From Methylobacter sp. (GTDB lineage Bacteria; Pseudomonadota; Gammaproteobacteria; Methylococcales; Methylomonadaceae): 35,548 nt of DNA. The position numbers and the translations under genes are program-made. Of this stretch, positions 7,470 through 19,294 are shown piece by piece. A model generated the notes under the pieces. It saw only the letters and a list, made by a program, of their open reading frames with translations, ran no database searches and was not told where the DNA came from. The stretch is from the NCBI GenBank assembly GCA_016784875.1, contig JADHTX010000004.1, positions 1-35,548 on the forward strand, written 5' to 3'. Within the stretch, counting starts at the first letter, position 1. Every line of letters begins with the position of its first letter.

Positions 7470-8786
7470 ATGAGCTCAATTTGGAACAACTGCCTCTCTA
7501 AACTTGAAAATGAAATTTCAGGTTCTGACTTTAGTACATGGATAAGGCCCCTTCAGGCCATAGAAAACGATGGACAAATAAAATTATTAGCCCCAAACCG
7601 GTTCGTACTGGATTGGGTTAAAGAGCATCATTTTGCTAAAATCGAAGAAACGATTTATGAATTTTCTAACGGAACATTTAATTTAAGTCTTGAAATTGGT
7701 TCCAAAAATTCATCCGTTACTCCTGCCGCAAAAATAGCCAAGCCTGCCGGTACTCAAAAATCCAGCCCCAACTTCCTCAATAAGGCGTTTACCTTCGACA
7801 ACTTTGTTGAGGGTAAATCTAATCAATTAGCTCGGGCAGCTTCTATGCAGGTTTCTGAAAACATTGGCAAAGCTTATAACCCATTGCTAATTTACGGCAG
7901 TTCAGGCTTGGGTAAAACGCATATGATGCATGCAATTGGTAATGCCGTTTTACAAAAAAATCCATCGGCAACTGTTGTTTATCTGCATTCTGAAAAATTC
8001 GTTCAGGATATGGTTAGGGCATTACAACAAAACTCTATTAATGCATTTAAAGAATTTTATCGCGGCGTTGATGTGCTGTTAATTGACGACATACAATTTT
8101 TTGCTGGAAAAGAGCGCTCTCAGGAAGAGTTTTTTCATACGTTCAATACATTATTGGAAAAAAAACATCAAGTTATCTTAACTTGTGATAAATATCCTAA
8201 AGAAATTATAGGTCTTGAAGATCGCTTAAAATCACGATTTGGCTGGGGACTTCCTGTTTTAATCGAACCTCCTGATATGGAAACCAGAGCCGCTATTTTA
8301 ATGAAGAAAGCGGCTTTGGTTAATATTGAATTAGCTCAGGATGTGGCTTTTTTTATTGCTAAACGGATTCCTTCCAACGTTCGAGATCTCGAAGGCGCTT
8401 TACGAAGAGTTATTGCTAACGCACAGTTTACCGGTCGCGAGATCACCATCGACTTTACCAAAGAAGCACTGCATGATTTAATTTCTTTGCAAGATAAACT
8501 CGTTAATATCGACAATATACAAAAAACAGTTGCGGAGTATTTTAAAATTCGCGTTGCTGATTTGTCTTCTAAAAATAGAAAACAATCCATTACTCGACCA
8601 AGACAAATGGCTATGTGCTTAGCCAGAGAACTAACATCACACAGTTTTCCTGAAATTGGCGATGCCTTCGGCGGTCGTGATCACACCACGGTAATGAATG
8701 CCTGTAAACGAATAGCCGAATTAAAAGAAGCCGATAATAAAATTGCAGAAGATTATTCCAACCTGTTGAGAACTCTGTCACATTAG
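7470..8786 (+). CDS. dnaA: Chromosomal replication initiator protein DnaA
   Basis: [49 protein letters not shown]-terminal [15 protein letters not shown]. Confidence 0.98.
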
Positions 8787-8974: not shown

Positions 8975-10075
8975 ATGAAATTTATTATTAATAGAGAAGA
9001 GATTTTGCTTCCTTTACAGCAAATCGTCAGCGTAATTGAGAAAAGGCAAACAATGCCTATTCTTTCTAATGTGCTGATGGTTATTGAAGAGGACCAGCTG
9101 ATTTTAACGGGTACCGATTTGGAAATTCAGATCATTGCTAAAATTAACATTGCAACTGCGACCCCAGGGGCGATTACAGTCCCCGCTAGAAAATTTTTAG
9201 ATATTTGTAGGTTAGTACCAAGTGGAGCAGAAATTAAATTTGAATTGCAGGACGATAAGGTAAAAATAGCTTCAAGTCGAAGTCGTTTTTCATTGAGTTG
9301 TTTACCTGCCGATAATTATCCTGAATTTGCTGAGTCCGAACTTGAAAATCATTTATTTATTACGGCTGGTAAATTAAAAAAAGCCTTTGATAAGACGATC
9401 TTCTGCATGGCTAATCAAGATGTTCGCTATTATCTGAACGGCTTGTTATTTAATGTCTTTAACAGTAAATTTAAGCTGGTTGCTTCTGACGGACATAGAT
9501 TGTCTATTTATGAAGATAATTTAGAACAGCCTACCGGTTTTGAAGCCAGAATTATTCTTCCAAGAAAAGGTGTACTGGAACTCAGTAGATTACTTGACGA
9601 TCCGGAAGCTGAACTAAAAATTGAGTTTTCCAGCAACAATATTCGTATTTTTATCAAAAACCTGATTTTTTCTGCAAAATTAGTGGACTCAAAATATCCT
9701 GATTTTGGCAAAGTTTTTCAACAAGATTTTTTTAATCAAATTCATATCCAAAAGCAAATACTAAAAGACGCTTTAACTCGTGTTGCTATCTTGTCGAATG
9801 AAAAATTTAAGGGAGTGACTTTTGATATTACGCCTGACCGTTTAAAAATAAGTACCCATAACCCTGAACATGATGAAGCTGAGGAAGAGTTGGTTATTGA
9901 CTACACTGGCGAGCCCTTAACAATTGCTTTTAATGCCCAGTATTTATTGGATGCTGTATCCAACTTAGATTCTGAACTTGCTGTTTTAACTATTGCGAGT
10001 AATGCCAGTAGCTGTTTTATTGATGAACCGGGTGATTGTGGGTATAAATTTATTGTTATGCCCATGAGATTATAA
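8975..10075 (+). CDS. dnaN: DNA polymerase III beta subunit (sliding clamp)
   Basis: MKFIINREEILLPLQQI..., C-terminal KFIVMPMRL; synteny with dnaA/recF. Confidence 0.97.
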   Translation: MKFIINREEILLPLQQIVSVIEKRQTMPILSNVLMVIEEDQLILTGTDLEIQIIAKINIATATPGAITVPARKFLDICRLVPSGAEIKFELQDDKVKIASSRSRFSLSCLPADNYPEFAESELENHLFITAGKLKKAFDKTIFCMANQDVRYYLNGLLFNVFNSKFKLVASDGHRLSIYEDNLEQPTGFEARIILPRKGVLELSRLLDDPEAELKIEFSSNNIRIFIKNLIFSAKLVDSKYPDFGKVFQQDFFNQIHIQKQILKDALTRVAILSNEKFKGVTFDITPDRLKISTHNPEHDEAEEELVIDYTGEPLTIAFNAQYLLDAVSNLDSELAVLTIASNASSCFIDEPGDCGYKFIVMPMRL

Positions 10076-10085
10076 ACTTGCCGTA

Positions 10086-11162
10086 ATGACTTTGTTGAAA
10101 CTGGATATTTACTCAGTCAGAAATATCCACAAGGAATCGATAATCCCCTCTCCAAAAATTAATCTGATTTTTGGAGAAAATGCCAGTGGAAAAAGCGCTC
10201 TACTCGAAGCTATTTTTATTCTCGGACGCGCTAAGTCTTATCGCTGTTCAACAATAAAATCCGTTATCAATTTTACCAAAAATCAGTTAGTTGTTTCAGC
10301 GCAGTCATTACAAAAAAACGGCAACCAGTTACAGTTGGGCATACAGCTCGATGGAAAAAATATTGATATTCATATCAATCAGCAAGCAAAACAAAAACGC
10401 TCCGATTTAGCTTATGCATTACCGTTACAACTGATTCATCCAAAAAGTTATGAGTTACTTGATGCCGGTTCGCAAGTAAGAAGAGAATTTTTAGATTGGG
10501 GTGTTTTTAATCATGATCATGATTTTTTATTTGCTTGGCGTAAGTATAAAAAAGCCTTATCTCAGCGCAATGCTCTGTTGAAAACAAAACATCTTGACCA
10601 AATTAATGTTTGGGATAAAGAACTCGTTTATTACGGTACAATAGTCGATTGTTTTCGTCAGCAGTATTTAGAAAAATTCAAACCCGTTTTTATTGAAATT
10701 ATCGACAAATTCCTCGATCTTGATGGTGTTGATTTGAAGCTCGTGTCTGGTTGGGATATGGCCAAGGACTTTAATGTAATTCTAATTGAGGATCGGGATA
10801 AAGACTTGCGTTATGGTTTTACCCATAGTGGGCCACATCGCGCTGATTTTCAATTATTGATTAATAACCGTTTAGCAAAAGATTTTGTTTCTCGGGGTCA
10901 ATTAAAATTATTAGTCATGAGTTTGAAATTAGCTCAGGTTCAATTGCTTGCTAATGAGCATAGTCAAACAGGTTGTATTTTGATTGATGATTTCGCTGCT
11001 GAACTCGATGTTATTAACAGGGCTAAATTATTAAGCTATTTATCGAAAATGGCTTGCCAAGTATTTATTACAGCAACGGAAAAAAATGATTTTGGCAATT
11101 TAAGTCAAATTAAAATTTACAAAATGTTCCACGTGGAACATGGCACCATAAAATCCGTGTAA
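10086..11162 (+). CDS. recF: DNA replication/repair protein RecF
   Basis: NLIFGENASGKSALLEAIFILGRAKSYR, FVSRGQLKLLVMSLKLAQ, ILIDDFAAELD; C-terminal MFHVEH is encoded by parS. Confidence 0.96.
   Translation: MTLLKLDIYSVRNIHKESIIPSPKINLIFGENASGKSALLEAIFILGRAKSYRCSTIKSVINFTKNQLVVSAQSLQKNGNQLQLGIQLDGKNIDIHINQQAKQKRSDLAYALPLQLIHPKSYELLDAGSQVRREFLDWGVFNHDHDFLFAWRKYKKALSQRNALLKTKHLDQINVWDKELVYYGTIVDCFRQQYLEKFKPVFIEIIDKFLDLDGVDLKLVSGWDMAKDFNVILIEDRDKDLRYGFTHSGPHRADFQLLINNRLAKDFVSRGQLKLLVMSLKLAQVQLLANEHSQTGCILIDDFAAELDVINRAKLLSYLSKMACQVFITATEKNDFGNLSQIKIYKMFHVEHGTIKSV
11125..11140. promoter_or_regulatory. parS site 1 (TGTTCCACGTGGAACA), inside recF 3' coding sequence
   Basis: Perfect 16-bp palindrome (18 bp extended, 11124-11141) matching the ParB-parS consensus family. 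Confidence 0.9.
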
Positions 11163-11178
11163 TGTTCCACGTGGAACA
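11163..11178. promoter_or_regulatory. parS site 2 (TGTTCCACGTGGAACA), recF-gyrB gap
   Basis: Perfect 16-bp palindrome (20 bp extended, 11161-11180, overlapping the recF stop), 38 bp centre-to-centre from site 1. Confidence 0.92.
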
Positions 11179-11192
11179 TTCACAACCAATAG

Positions 11193-13670
<2,478 letters not shown>

Positions 13671-14690: not shown

Positions 14691-15791
14691 CGCTTGCCGA
14701 AACCGGCCTTGTTTTTGTGCGACCGGGACGAGCTGCGTGAACAGGGTTACAACAAGCTTAAAGCAGTATTCGGCGACAATGCCCGTATCGTTATCAATAC
14801 CAAAGGCGAAAACAGCGCCAAAAACGCCCGGATTCATATTGCGACTTACCAAACCTTGGGGCTGGATGACGAAGAGAACGACACCGCCAACAACCTCAAA
14901 TACTTTGGCGAACCGGTTTACGAATACAATCTGATCCAAGCCCAGGAAGACGACTACCTCGCCGCTTGCGAAATCATCAAACGCAAGGCCTCGATAGACG
15001 GCAAAACCTTTACCGGTGAAGAGGTGCTTAAAGCCAAGCCGATTGACGCCAAAACCGGCAGAGAAATCAGGCAGGAAGAAATCAAAGACCAATACACGTC
15101 CCGGCATTTCGACAGCCAACTACTGATACCGGAACGCATTGCGGCCATGTGCGAGGATTTGTTCAAGCAGCTTTGCCAACACGGCGGCCCCGAGCAGAAA
15201 GCGATTATTTTTTGCACCCGCGAAATCCACGCCGACCGCGTCGCCAAACAACATTACGCATTCAAATGCATGGGCACGGCTAACGGCGGGAGAGAATTGA
15301 TAGAGCCGATGCGCGGCTCCGGCGAACGGGCTTTCATCGCTTGCACCGTCGATTTGTTGGCGACCGGCGTCGATATAGAACGGCTTAATGCCGTGGTGTT
15401 TTTCCGTTATCTGGAATCCAGCATCCTGTTTTACCAAATGGTCGGACGCGGCACCCGTATCGACGAAGTCACGCAAAAATACAAATTCTGGCTGTACGAT
15501 TACACCGGCGTAACCGACTTGTTCGGCACCGATTTTATTAGCGCGCACAGTTCAGGCAAAAACAAGACCGGCGGTGGTGGAGGCGAAGACGGCGGAGATG
15601 ATGGCGAAGGAGAAGACGAACCGCCGGTGATTCAAATTGGCGGGCAAACCGTGACCGTCAACTCGGAAGGCCGCTTCATCCTGAGCCGTCGCGAAGGCCG
15701 GGATGTGAAAATCCCGATAGAGGAATACCGCCGGGAAATGCTGCAACGGGTGCTCAGCGAGGCGGGCAACTTGCGGGATTTTCGGCCTTAA
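14691..15791 (+). pseudogene. hsdR: Type I restriction enzyme R subunit relic (EcoEI-like HsdR): N-terminus absent, DEAH-containing segment deleted in frame
   Basis: Homology begins at RLPKPALFLCDRDELR 5 nt after the lgt stop; HIATYQTLGLDDEENDT is joined to ANNLKYFGEPVYEY; later helicase motifs (FIACTVDLLATGVDI, YQMVGRGTR) are present. Confidence 0.85.
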
Positions 15792-15849
15792 AGAAATTGG
15801 GTAAACCGGCTGGTGTTATATTGGATGCTAAAGAGAGGTTGTTTGGGAT

Positions 15850-16450
15850 ATGAGTTGGCCGATAAAAAAACTTTCTACTGTTGCACAAATAAACCCCAGT
15901 AGAACCAAAACCATACGCGAAGACCATACAAAAACTTCTTTCATTCCAATGGAAAATGTAGATGGTGTAAATGGGATTGTAATTGAGGCATTGAATCGGC
16001 CTTATGCAGAGGTAAAAAAGGGATACACATATTTTGAAGAAAACGATGTGATATTCGCAAAGATCACGCCTTGTATGCAAAACGGAAAAAATGCAATTGT
16101 CACCGGTTTAATTGATGGTATTGGTTTTGGGTCAACAGAGTTTCACGTTATTAGATGCTCAGAAGAAGTAATTCCTGAATGGATACATTTATTTTTACGC
16201 AGACAAGAAACTCTTGATGCAGCCATTAAAACTTTTTACTGTAGCAGTTGGACAAAAGCGTGTGCCAGCCAACTTCTTAGAAAATTTAGAAATACCGATA
16301 CCAGTATCAGTTGAAGAGCAATACCAAATTGTGTCATGTCTTAAAGCTCAACTAGACGAAGTAAAAACTGCGCGTAAGGCGGCAGAAATGCAACTAGCGG
16401 AAATTAAACGATTGCCGACGCAATTGTTGGCCCAAGCTTTCAAGCTATGA
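15850..16450 (+). pseudogene. hsdS: Type I restriction specificity subunit, single target-recognition half, frameshifted
   Basis: ORF 15850-16314 and ORF 16214-16450 are consecutive parts of one HsdS-like sequence; frame change at T5 run 16233-16237 (restored reading ...DAAIKTFTVAVGQKRVPANFLENLEIPIP). Confidence 0.8.
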
Positions 16451-16477
16451 GTAGCCAACCAGATAGAAAACAACTTG

Positions 16478-16549
16478 TTGTAGGAGTGGGCCGTGCCCGC
16501 GATTGGGCAGCAACATGACTCAAATCGCGGACACGGCCCGCTCCTACAA
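16478..16549. repeat. REP pair / BIME-like inverted repeat 1
   Basis: TTGTAGGAGTGGGCCGTGCCCGCGATT ... AATCGCGGACACGGCCCGCTCCTACAA. Confidence 0.85.
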
Positions 16550-16660
16550 GATAAACCTTGGTAATAAAATGAGCAGTAGAATAAGTGCAATAAACTCCAT
16601 GAATAGTTACTGACTAAAGCCCTCGAGAACAAATAAACATGCCTTGTTCAAATAAATTTG

Positions 16661-16732
16661 TTGTAGGAGCGGGCCGTGCCCGCGATCTGAGTCGTGCCTA
16701 GCCCTATTCGCGGGCATGGCCCGTTCCCACAA
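16661..16732. repeat. REP pair / BIME-like inverted repeat 2, overlapping the RAYT ORF start
   Basis: TTGTAGGAGCGGGCCGTGCCCGCGAT ... TCGCGGGCATGGCCCGTTCCCACAA. Confidence 0.85.
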
Positions 16733-17191
16733 AAAAATCGACCCGGACATCAGGCATTGCGTAAGGGAAGAGCGTCTTTGCCTAACCACGTTTATTTGAT
16801 AACCGCGACAACGCTTAATCGCCAATGTTTTTTTGATAAATTTAACGCCGGTTGCGCCGCCGCACGATGTTTTGAAAGCAACGAAATTCTTGGCGATGCC
16901 CGAATGCTCGCTTGGGTTCTGATGCCGGATCATGCGCATTGGCTTGTTGGTTTGGGTATGCAAGATAATTTAAGTATTGTCGTCAATCGGCTGAAATCGT
17001 CCAGTTCAAGATTGGCGAATCGCGTTCTTGAACGTAGCGGGACGCTATGGGAACCGGGGTATCATGATCACGCCTTACGCGCCGAGGAGGATTTACTCAA
17101 TATCGCTCGATACATTATTGCCAATCCTTTGCGGGCAGGGCTGGTTCAACGGGTAGGGGATTATCCGTTTTGGAATGCGATTTGGGTTTGA
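16694..17191 (+). mobile_element. REP-associated tyrosine transposase (RAYT, Y1/HUH family)
   Basis: RKGRASLPNHVYLITATT, MLAWVLMPDHAHWLV (HUH), LWEPGYHDHALRAEEDLLNIARYIIANPLRAGLV; flanked by REP hairpins. The real start may lie downstream of the GTG at 16694. Confidence 0.88.
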
Positions 17192-17222
17192 TTTTTAGTT
17201 GCAGCAGTAATTAGATGACTGG

Positions 17223-17250
17223 ACCATTTCGAGGATGTCCTCGTAATGGT
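17223..17250. repeat. Near-perfect 28-nt hairpin (ACCATT-T-CGAGGA-TG-TCCTCG-T-AATGGT)
   Basis: Two 6-bp stems separated by a T/T mismatch, read directly; RAYT-hsdM gap. Confidence 0.75.
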
Positions 17251-17318
17251 TGAAATCGGTTCAGGCGCAAGATATTAACTCCCTGGCTTCAGGTTATCTG
17301 GGGTGGCAAGAAAGTTTT

Positions 17319-17344
17319 TCGCGGGCATGGCCCGCTCCTACAAA
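17319..17344. repeat. Single REP half-site 3 downstream of RAYT
   Basis: TCGCGGGCATGGCCCGCTCCTACAAA matches the right arms of REP pairs 1 and 2. Confidence 0.8.
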
Positions 17345-17356
17345 ATATAATGAAAT

Positions 17357-19294
17357 ATGATCAACAAACCCAGCAACACACTAAAAACAGCGAAAAAAGG
17401 CAAATCGCCCAAGTCTATCGCTTCCACGCAATCGCTATCCTCATTTGTTAAAGCCATTTGCGACGTGATGCGCCGCTCCAATTGCGCCAGCGCCTTGCAG
17501 TATGTGCCGGAATTAACCTGGATCCTGTTTTTGCGCATTCTGGATGCGCAAGAGCAAAAGGCGAGGGAACAAGCCGAGGCATTAGGTAACGATTATGCCC
17601 CGGCCTTGACTGCGCCCTATCGCTGGCAGGATTGGGCAGCGCCGTTTGCCGATTAGGAAGAGACGGGAGAACAAGCTATCGGTTGGAAGCGCAAGGAGCT
17701 TTACGCGGCGGGCGACGGCAAGCTGTTCGAGTTTATTAATAACGAACAGCTGCCGCATTTGCACAGTCTGGATGTCGATCCTAACACCCAGTTGCCTAAT
17801 AGCAATGCCAGCCGCAAACAGCGGGTGATCGGCCGGATTATGACGGCGGTGGAAAAAGTGCGGGTCGATAGCGAAACCAATCTGCGCGATATTCTCGACA
17901 AGGTGCATGAAATCCATATCGACCATATCGACGACACTCACTTTTTTACCTTGTCGCAAGTCTATGAAGATTTGCTGCTGAAAATGGGCGAGAAAAATTC
18001 CGACGGCGGCCAGTTTTTTACGCCGCCCGAAGTGATCCGGGGCATGGTGTATATTCTCGATCCGCAAGCCGGGGAAACGGTTTACGATCCTTGTTGCGGC
18101 ACCGGCGGCTTTTTGGCGGTGGCGTTCGAGCATATCAGCCGCAATTTGGGCAATTCGCCCACCGCGACGATGTTGGATGTGTTGAAACACGATACCTTTT
18201 TCGGCAGGGAAAAAGAGAACTTGGTTTTTCCTATCGCGTTAGCCAATTTGATCCTGCACGGCATAGACCAGCCGAATTTGTGGTACGGCAATACGCTGAC
18301 CAACCGGCCTACTTATGCCGGTTTGTTTGAGCAAGCCCCGGCCACTTTCGATGTGATTTTGACCAATCCGCCGTTCGGCGGCAAGGAAGGCACGGATGCG
18401 CAAAAGAATTACAGCTTCGAAACCGGTTCGACCCAGGTTTTGTTCCTGCAACATATTTTGGCCGACCTGAAACTGCCGATGGACGGCAAAGCGGGTGGGC
18501 GTTGCGGTATTGTGTTGGATGAAGGCTTGTTGTTCCGAACCAATGAGAGCGCCTTTGTCGAAACCAAGCGCAAGCTGGTCGATGAATGCGATTTGTGGTG
18601 CATCATCAGCTTGCCGGGCGGCGTATTTTCAACAGCGGGAGCCGGTGTTAAAACCAATTTGCTGTTTTTTACCAAGGGTAAAAAAACCGAACGCATTTGG
18701 TATTATGATTTATCGCAAATCAAAGTTGGCAAGAAAACACCGACGACCTTGGCTTATTTTGGTTTCGATAAGCAAGGCGGTGTTCTGGATGATGCCGATT
18801 TGCCGAGGCCATTAGTCGCTGACTGGCTGGAACAGGAGGGTAATCAGGGCAAAGTCTTTTCTTCGGTTGCAAGGTTGCTCAGCAAACATGGAACACCTGA
18901 AGCGGACAGCGATTTTTCCTGGACGGTGGACTTTGCCGCTCGTCGTGTCAAGGCTCAGGCGGATATGCAGCCGTTTCTGGAAGAGCTTAAAAATCTCACC
19001 GAAGCATTACTGCCGCTGAAAGAGGATTTGAAAGCGCTGAAAAAGGATAAGGCCGACAAGGAAAAAATATCGGCTATTGAAGGGGCTATCAAAGTCAAAG
19101 AAAAAGCCGTCCGCGAAGCGCAAACCAAGGCTGCGGACATAGACGCTACGGTTTGTGACCTGAAAGTCGTTAATCCTAATGTGAAGGCGATTGTCGATAC
19201 CCGCACCGTGTTGGAGATTATCGATAATATCAATCTGCAAGGTCAGATAGCTGCTACGGCTATGAACAATTTGCGGGGATTGTTGGCGGAGTAG
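17357..19294 (+). pseudogene. hsdM: Type I restriction-modification methyltransferase HsdM interrupted by one in-frame TAG (17654-17656)
   Basis: ORFs 17357-17656 and 17759-19294 share a frame; the intervening 34 codons are open (EETGEQAIGWKRKELYAAGDGKLFEFINNEQLPH). Motifs YDPCCGTGGFL and LTNPPFGG present. Confidence 0.9.

Follow-up and report, generated by a model that had tools for sequence, protein, structure and literature searches.

The end of recF in Methylobacter sp. carries two identical palindromes that very probably serve a ParABS system as its chromosomal parS centromere, and the first of them also encodes residues of the RecF tail. The evidence for this assignment came from the sequences of the two sites, their conservation among relatives, the codon constraint in recF, the presence of ParA and ParB in the same genome and the decay of the sites together with loss of ParB. 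The stretch of DNA analysed here, referred to as the window, is 35,548 nucleotides long (contig JADHTX010000004.1 of assembly GCA_016784875.1).

A pair of parS sites in the origin gene cluster

The sequence TGTTCCACGTGGAACA, a perfect 16-bp palindrome, occurred in two copies with a start-to-start distance of 38 bp (Table 1), which agreed with the preliminary description of two perfect parS sites in tandem. Each copy formed the core of the 18-bp palindrome ATGTTCCACGTGGAACAT. The 18-bp palindrome of site 1 was in frame with recF and coded for MFHVEH, so the earlier reading of this site as part of the protein held as well. Site 2 had been thought to overlap the recF stop codon TAA (11160-11162); the 16-bp site, which starts one base past the stop and lies 26 bp ahead of gyrB, in fact only abuts it, and the overlap is limited to one base shared with the 18-bp palindrome.

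Both perfect 16-bp copies had the form of the parS consensus with its CACGTG core, and none was expected by chance. With up to three mismatches allowed, the two copies of TGTTCCACGTGGAACA were the only matches in the window; shuffling predicted 0.10 matches, and two matches did not occur in any of 100 shuffled windows. The preliminary description had proposed mapping parS genome-wide and locating parAB; the same two sites were the only matches in the whole draft genome at up to two mismatches, with 0 matches in the reversed control, and parA and parB were both found. A chance match as the origin of the site pair was ruled out by the shuffles and the genome-wide mismatch search. Since the draft genome (2.97 Mb in 278 contigs) was 80.65% complete, additional parS could be absent from the assembly.

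The genes in the window were arranged as mnmE-yidC-rnpA on the minus strand, followed by dnaA, dnaN, recF and gyrB, which is the standard origin cluster. Judged from this gene cluster, the parS pair, lying inside dnaA-dnaN-recF-gyrB, was placed near the origin.

Table 1. Coordinates of the parS sites and neighbouring genes in the window
Feature	Position	Strand	Evidence or description
dnaA, marker of the replication-origin gene cluster	7470..8786	+	TIGR00362, 591 bits
dnaN, beta clamp gene of the dnaA-dnaN-recF-gyrB cluster	8975..10075	+	TIGR00663, 330 bits
recF, host gene of the dual-coding site	10086..11162	+	TIGR00611, 324.4 bits, over cut-off
Vacated internal parS slot of recF, DWGVFNHD in place of DWGVFHVE[HPQ]	10504..10519	+	alignment to class sample
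parS site 1 (tail slot)	11125..11140	.	perfect 16-bp palindrome, centre of 18-bp palindrome 11124-11141
parS site 2	11163..11178	.	perfect 16-bp palindrome, upstream of gyrB
gyrB, downstream of site 2	11205..13670	+	TIGR01059 and NF011501, over cut-off

Elsewhere in the window, between lgt and thyA (14694-19294), type I restriction-modification genes were matched in part, below the curated cut-offs, with a fragment of the R subunit at 14694-15791 and an M-like piece at 17759-19294. By its gene content, this interval looks like a degraded restriction-modification locus.

ParA and ParB of the genome

The statement that parA and parB were absent locally was right for the window. The cognate pair required by a parS of the ParABS type was present in the same genome on contig C89, in the order mnmG-rsmG-parA-parB followed by the ATP synthase (atp) genes. 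ParB matched TIGR00180 with 210 bits, over the cut-off, and contained the Pfam domains ParB_N, HTH_ParB and ParB_C, while ParA, whose gene adjoins parB, matched AAA_31.

The bacterial parS consensus TGTTTCACGTGAAACA (Jalal et al., PMC7383237) has the same length, the palindrome and the CACGTG core of the window site, which differed from it only at the C/T- and A/G-variable positions. The window pair was distinguished from typical TGTTTCACGTGAAACA sites by its location in and beside coding sequence and by its close tandem arrangement. The Noc-binding site NBS (TATTTCCCGGGAAATA), a related palindrome of 16 bp that a paralogue of ParB recognises, has CCCGGG as its core. Residues that separate parS-binding ParB from Noc have been listed (Jalal et al., PMC7383237); read in motif register with this list, the specificity residues of the genome's ParB were R173, N178, G201 and R204, as opposed to Q and R at positions 173 and 201 of Noc. 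By these four residues, the predicted protein is of the parS type and not of the Noc type. An identity of the site pair as NBS was ruled out by the CACGTG core and by R173 and G201 in ParB.

An additional ORF of 97 amino acids, resembling a shortened ParB, was found between parA and parB on the minus strand (L035:6722-7015, contig C89). It retained the N-terminal KRGLGRGLEALLA peptide and the stretch ahead of the HTH, but had no GERRWRA motif, no HTH, no dimerisation domain and no Pfam match. The KRGLGRGLEALLA-type N-terminus of ParB is the ParA-activating end. The ORF was located at the same place in 17 members of the genus, with a median dN/dS of 0.28 as compared with 0.065 for parB, and it was also present in five other genera of the family, but not in G024, G033 or other families. 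It possibly encodes a DNA-free ParA regulator.

Conservation of the pair in the family

All 31 members of the family whose recF could be read (handles G000-G036) retained both parS sites. The spacing was exactly 38 bp in 29 of them and 37 and 47 bp in the remaining two, and each of these 31 genomes had just two parS matches genome-wide, except for one genome with three. The mean identity to the majority base (n=29) was 0.99 in site 1 and 0.97 in site 2, as compared with 0.84 between the sites and 0.70 after site 2. In three relatives the recF stop was shifted, with site 2 being coding as CSTWNT (L027) or VPRGT (L029), or lying around the stop (L031). The DNA of site 2 was thus retained while the reading frame changed, and therefore the DNA is the target of selection. 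The internal slot of recF contained no parS in any of the 31 family members, its sequence being DWGVFN or similar. By this comparison the family has lost the internal site, and it carries a parS copy directly after the recF stop.

Two family genomes were observed to differ. In G030 (96% complete, 5 contigs), there was no match to recF or parS, and ParB was a 32-residue remnant with an internal stop; recF, parB and parS seem to have been lost together. In G031 (99% complete), ParB was present with 204 bits, yet no recF match and no parS at up to one mismatch were detected, which would reflect either an assembly gap or a moved site.

The constant spacing could also be read at the RNA level, in that a hairpin formed by the pair in the recF-gyrB transcript would regulate recF termination or gyrB, with the parS match being secondary. 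The pair folded into a 19-bp outer stem of -35.9 kcal/mol (z = -7.9), the 38-bp spacing was kept in nearly all family members, and site 2 precedes the start of gyrB. However, two identical palindromes necessarily pair, so the DNA repeats suffice to predict such a fold. No U-run was present downstream, and the substitutions did not appear to follow pairing, judging from A-C mismatches between the copies in G032, G036 and G161. In most of the class the sites lie about 620 bp apart within recF, with no such local hairpin, and the sequence is still kept. Because of this separation and the mismatches in three genomes, the hairpin is better viewed as a by-product, and a regulatory role of it as the primary function is highly unlikely.

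Two parS slots in recF across the order and class

The survey of the class covered about 145 genomes belonging to roughly 135 families, with two mismatches to parS allowed in scoring slot occupancy. That this class is the Gammaproteobacteria is indicated by the order of the genes, the relationship to RecF of E. coli and the case published for P. aeruginosa. Two in-frame recF slots recurred in this sample, the tail slot (M-FHVEH-G) and the internal slot (DWGV-FHVEH), about 620 bp apart. Both were occupied in 109 genomes, the internal slot only in 17, the tail slot only in 10 and neither in 8. The tail slot had parS in 119 of 144 genomes, and the internal slot had parS at the aligned position in 127 of 145.

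The tail slot coded for FHV[EK] in 117 genomes and the internal slot in 125, always with parS-like DNA; among these 242 class-sample slots, no FHV[EK] was encoded by DNA more than two mismatches from parS. That a parS in frame codes for FHV[EK] is trivial, but that FHV[EK] never occurs in parS-unlike DNA is not. The codons CAC-GTG-(G/A)AA (RAA) were used in 113 of 117 tail sites and in 121 of 125 internal sites, whereas the codon usage of the individual recF genes predicted 10.8 and 10.6. Positions left free by parS varied widely, with TTT or TTC for F and GAA or AAA (E or K). Together, the codon test and the conservation profile demonstrated conservation of the DNA beyond protein coding. Our results thereby bore out the earlier proposal that the same nucleotides serve as parS and as RecF code and constrain the RecF tail, given that FHV[EK] occurred only with parS-like DNA and parS-compatible codons.

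The palindrome might instead be accounted for by a conserved RecF tail MFHVEH alone, with no centromere role. In favour of this, site 1 belongs to the recF reading frame, and the RecF alignment showed invariant F and G residues in the tail, with MFTVEKG of E. coli included. Protein conservation of this kind does not account for the excess of parS-compatible codons at the tail, nor for site 2, which is non-coding or in other frames and was conserved as well. Moreover, RecF proteins encoded without parS had T, S, N, E, Q or R replacing H. Pure RecF protein conservation was ruled out by the codon use and the tails lacking H and E, and this explanation has next to no chance of being correct.

The order showed the same dependence on the DNA site. 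Members with parS at the tail slot had tails such as FHVEH, FHVEQ and FHVKH, and ParB-bearing genomes of the order with no parS at the tail had VFEIS, VYTIS, VYDIA, LFHIA, VFHIS or TFRLE. The preliminary description had tied MFHVEH to the presence of ParB. This was correct insofar as the motif decays with loss of ParB, but the tail followed parS at the slot and not ParB itself. Since nearly every genome in the class sample had ParB, a comparison of ParB-plus with ParB-minus genomes was too coarse, and the informative contrast was between parS in the slot and parS elsewhere.

Decay of the sites in genomes lacking ParB

Within one genus, G082 had ParB and both recF sites, but G199 (one contig, 99% complete) had no ParB and carried TGTTCCACGTAAAACG at the tail and TGTTCCATGCGGAACC internally; from these sequences, parS decay accompanies loss of ParB. 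In 80 named Enterobacteriaceae, the tail was MF[TSNR]VEKG and the internal sequence DWGCFHN, with no FHV[EK] at the tail. Among 22 of these genomes, the best ParB match reached 160 bits and is probably plasmid-borne, and 8 had no match. Enterobacteriaceae and Pasteurellaceae have no chromosomal par genes (PMC3909081). The E. coli spelling ATGTTTACCGTGGAAAAG resembles a decayed parS and may derive from such a site. Decay where ParB was absent was thus observed for G199 versus G082 and for Enterobacteriaceae, with few independent losses and with G240 as a partial exception, in which no ParB was detected and the tail site was lost, but the internal site was kept. Both sites were kept in G161 (95% complete, 300 contigs), where no ParB was detected either; its parB gene may simply have been missed.

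An observation that weighs against the parS assignment, as does the site kept in G240, concerned G099 and G209, which belong to one genus and have genomes of about 2.0 Mb. They contained a ParB-like gene of 118-122 bits, with no parS at up to one mismatch anywhere, and their RecF tail was shortened to IIEI or LIEL. The ParB of these two genomes may read another site.

Possible replacement of a lost slot

Outside the window's family, a second parS within 120 bp after the tail slot was found in 8 of 32 one-slot genomes as compared with 1 of 116 two-slot genomes. The enrichment of a second site with one slot missing gave a Fisher p of 1.7e-5 in a test that ignores shared ancestry. On the RecF tree, 9 changes were needed for the second site, 23 for the tail site and 20 for the internal site; with 9 changes, the second site therefore arose or vanished repeatedly. 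The tree-based test of independent pairs yielded four supported pairs only. These distributions suggest that a new site beside the recF stop replaces a lost slot.

Comparison with P. aeruginosa and proposed function

In P. aeruginosa, recF harbours parS1 and parS2, at a distance of about 4 kb from oriC (PMC3909081, PMC5521831). The sequence shared by parS2 and parS3 is the best binder of ParB in vitro and is bound in vivo (PMC4368675, PMC5098823), and this 16-mer is letter-for-letter identical to that of the window. The parS1 site ends in ACC, like many internal-slot sites of the class sample (FHVEP). In contrast to P. aeruginosa, the window has no internal recF site, and its second copy directly follows the stop codon of recF, at 38 bp from the site in the tail; P. 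aeruginosa has the intergenic parS3 and parS4 too, but the draft genome of the window shows no additional parS. A parS inside recF has thus already been published, and the window, judged by its sequence, is a further case of a real dual-coding centromere. Neither the two-slot pattern of the class nor the tandem after the recF stop was found in the literature searched, a search that had the parS survey of Livny et al. 2007 outside its range.

For the identical sequence in P. aeruginosa, both ParB binding and a need for it in segregation are known. By the identity to the tested P. aeruginosa sites, ParB binding, loading and segregation would be expected in this organism too. ParB made elsewhere in the genome would recognise both sites, load and slide outward, and the loaded ParB would recruit ParA and probably SMC, with the dnaA-side origin region being segregated first. 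Site 1 would sit in the old parS slot of recF, where the last strand of RecF may tolerate F-H-V-E/K-H/Q, and selection on the DNA for ParB binding would fix the codons of site 1 and hence its residues. With the internal recF slot lost in the family, the copy after the recF stop would restore a pair of ParB loading sites.

The location of site 2 just upstream of gyrB raised another explanation, namely that the pair serves chiefly as ParB-dependent operators for tuning the expression of gyrB or recF. In P. aeruginosa, an excess of ParB reduces gyrB by a factor of about 2 (PMC5521831). At native ParB levels, however, genes near the intragenic parS1 and parS2 were unchanged in parB-null or parS-null strains, and only genes near the intergenic parS3 and parS4 were altered (PMC5521831). 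In addition, the stretch from recF to gyrB is free of such a site in most relatives, and in several of them parS is located at a long distance from gyrB. An influence of ParB spreading on gyrB, as proposed in the preliminary description, is argued against by the published data at native ParB levels, and an operator as the main role appears extremely unlikely.

Implications for recF and the centromere

Returning to the centromere reading, the class-wide pattern inclines us, by a narrow balance of probability, to regard recF as an ancestral centromere of Gammaproteobacteria, with two in-frame FHV[EK] slots that were kept across most families and were vacated only with loss of ParB or a move of parS, and with a tendency for a new site beside the recF stop to take over from a missing slot. 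If this is true, selection would act on how many ParB loading sites lie near recF, and not just on their presence. If lost sites are replaced, as it appears, the question of why chromosomes have more than one parS becomes testable. The HVEH in RecF tails should not be taken for a functional protein motif, and the RecF slots may serve as a genomic read-out of the position of the centromere, the activity of ParABS and the time of its loss. The site is a clear example of DNA that carries two messages at once, with a centromere fixing residues of a repair protein throughout a bacterial class.
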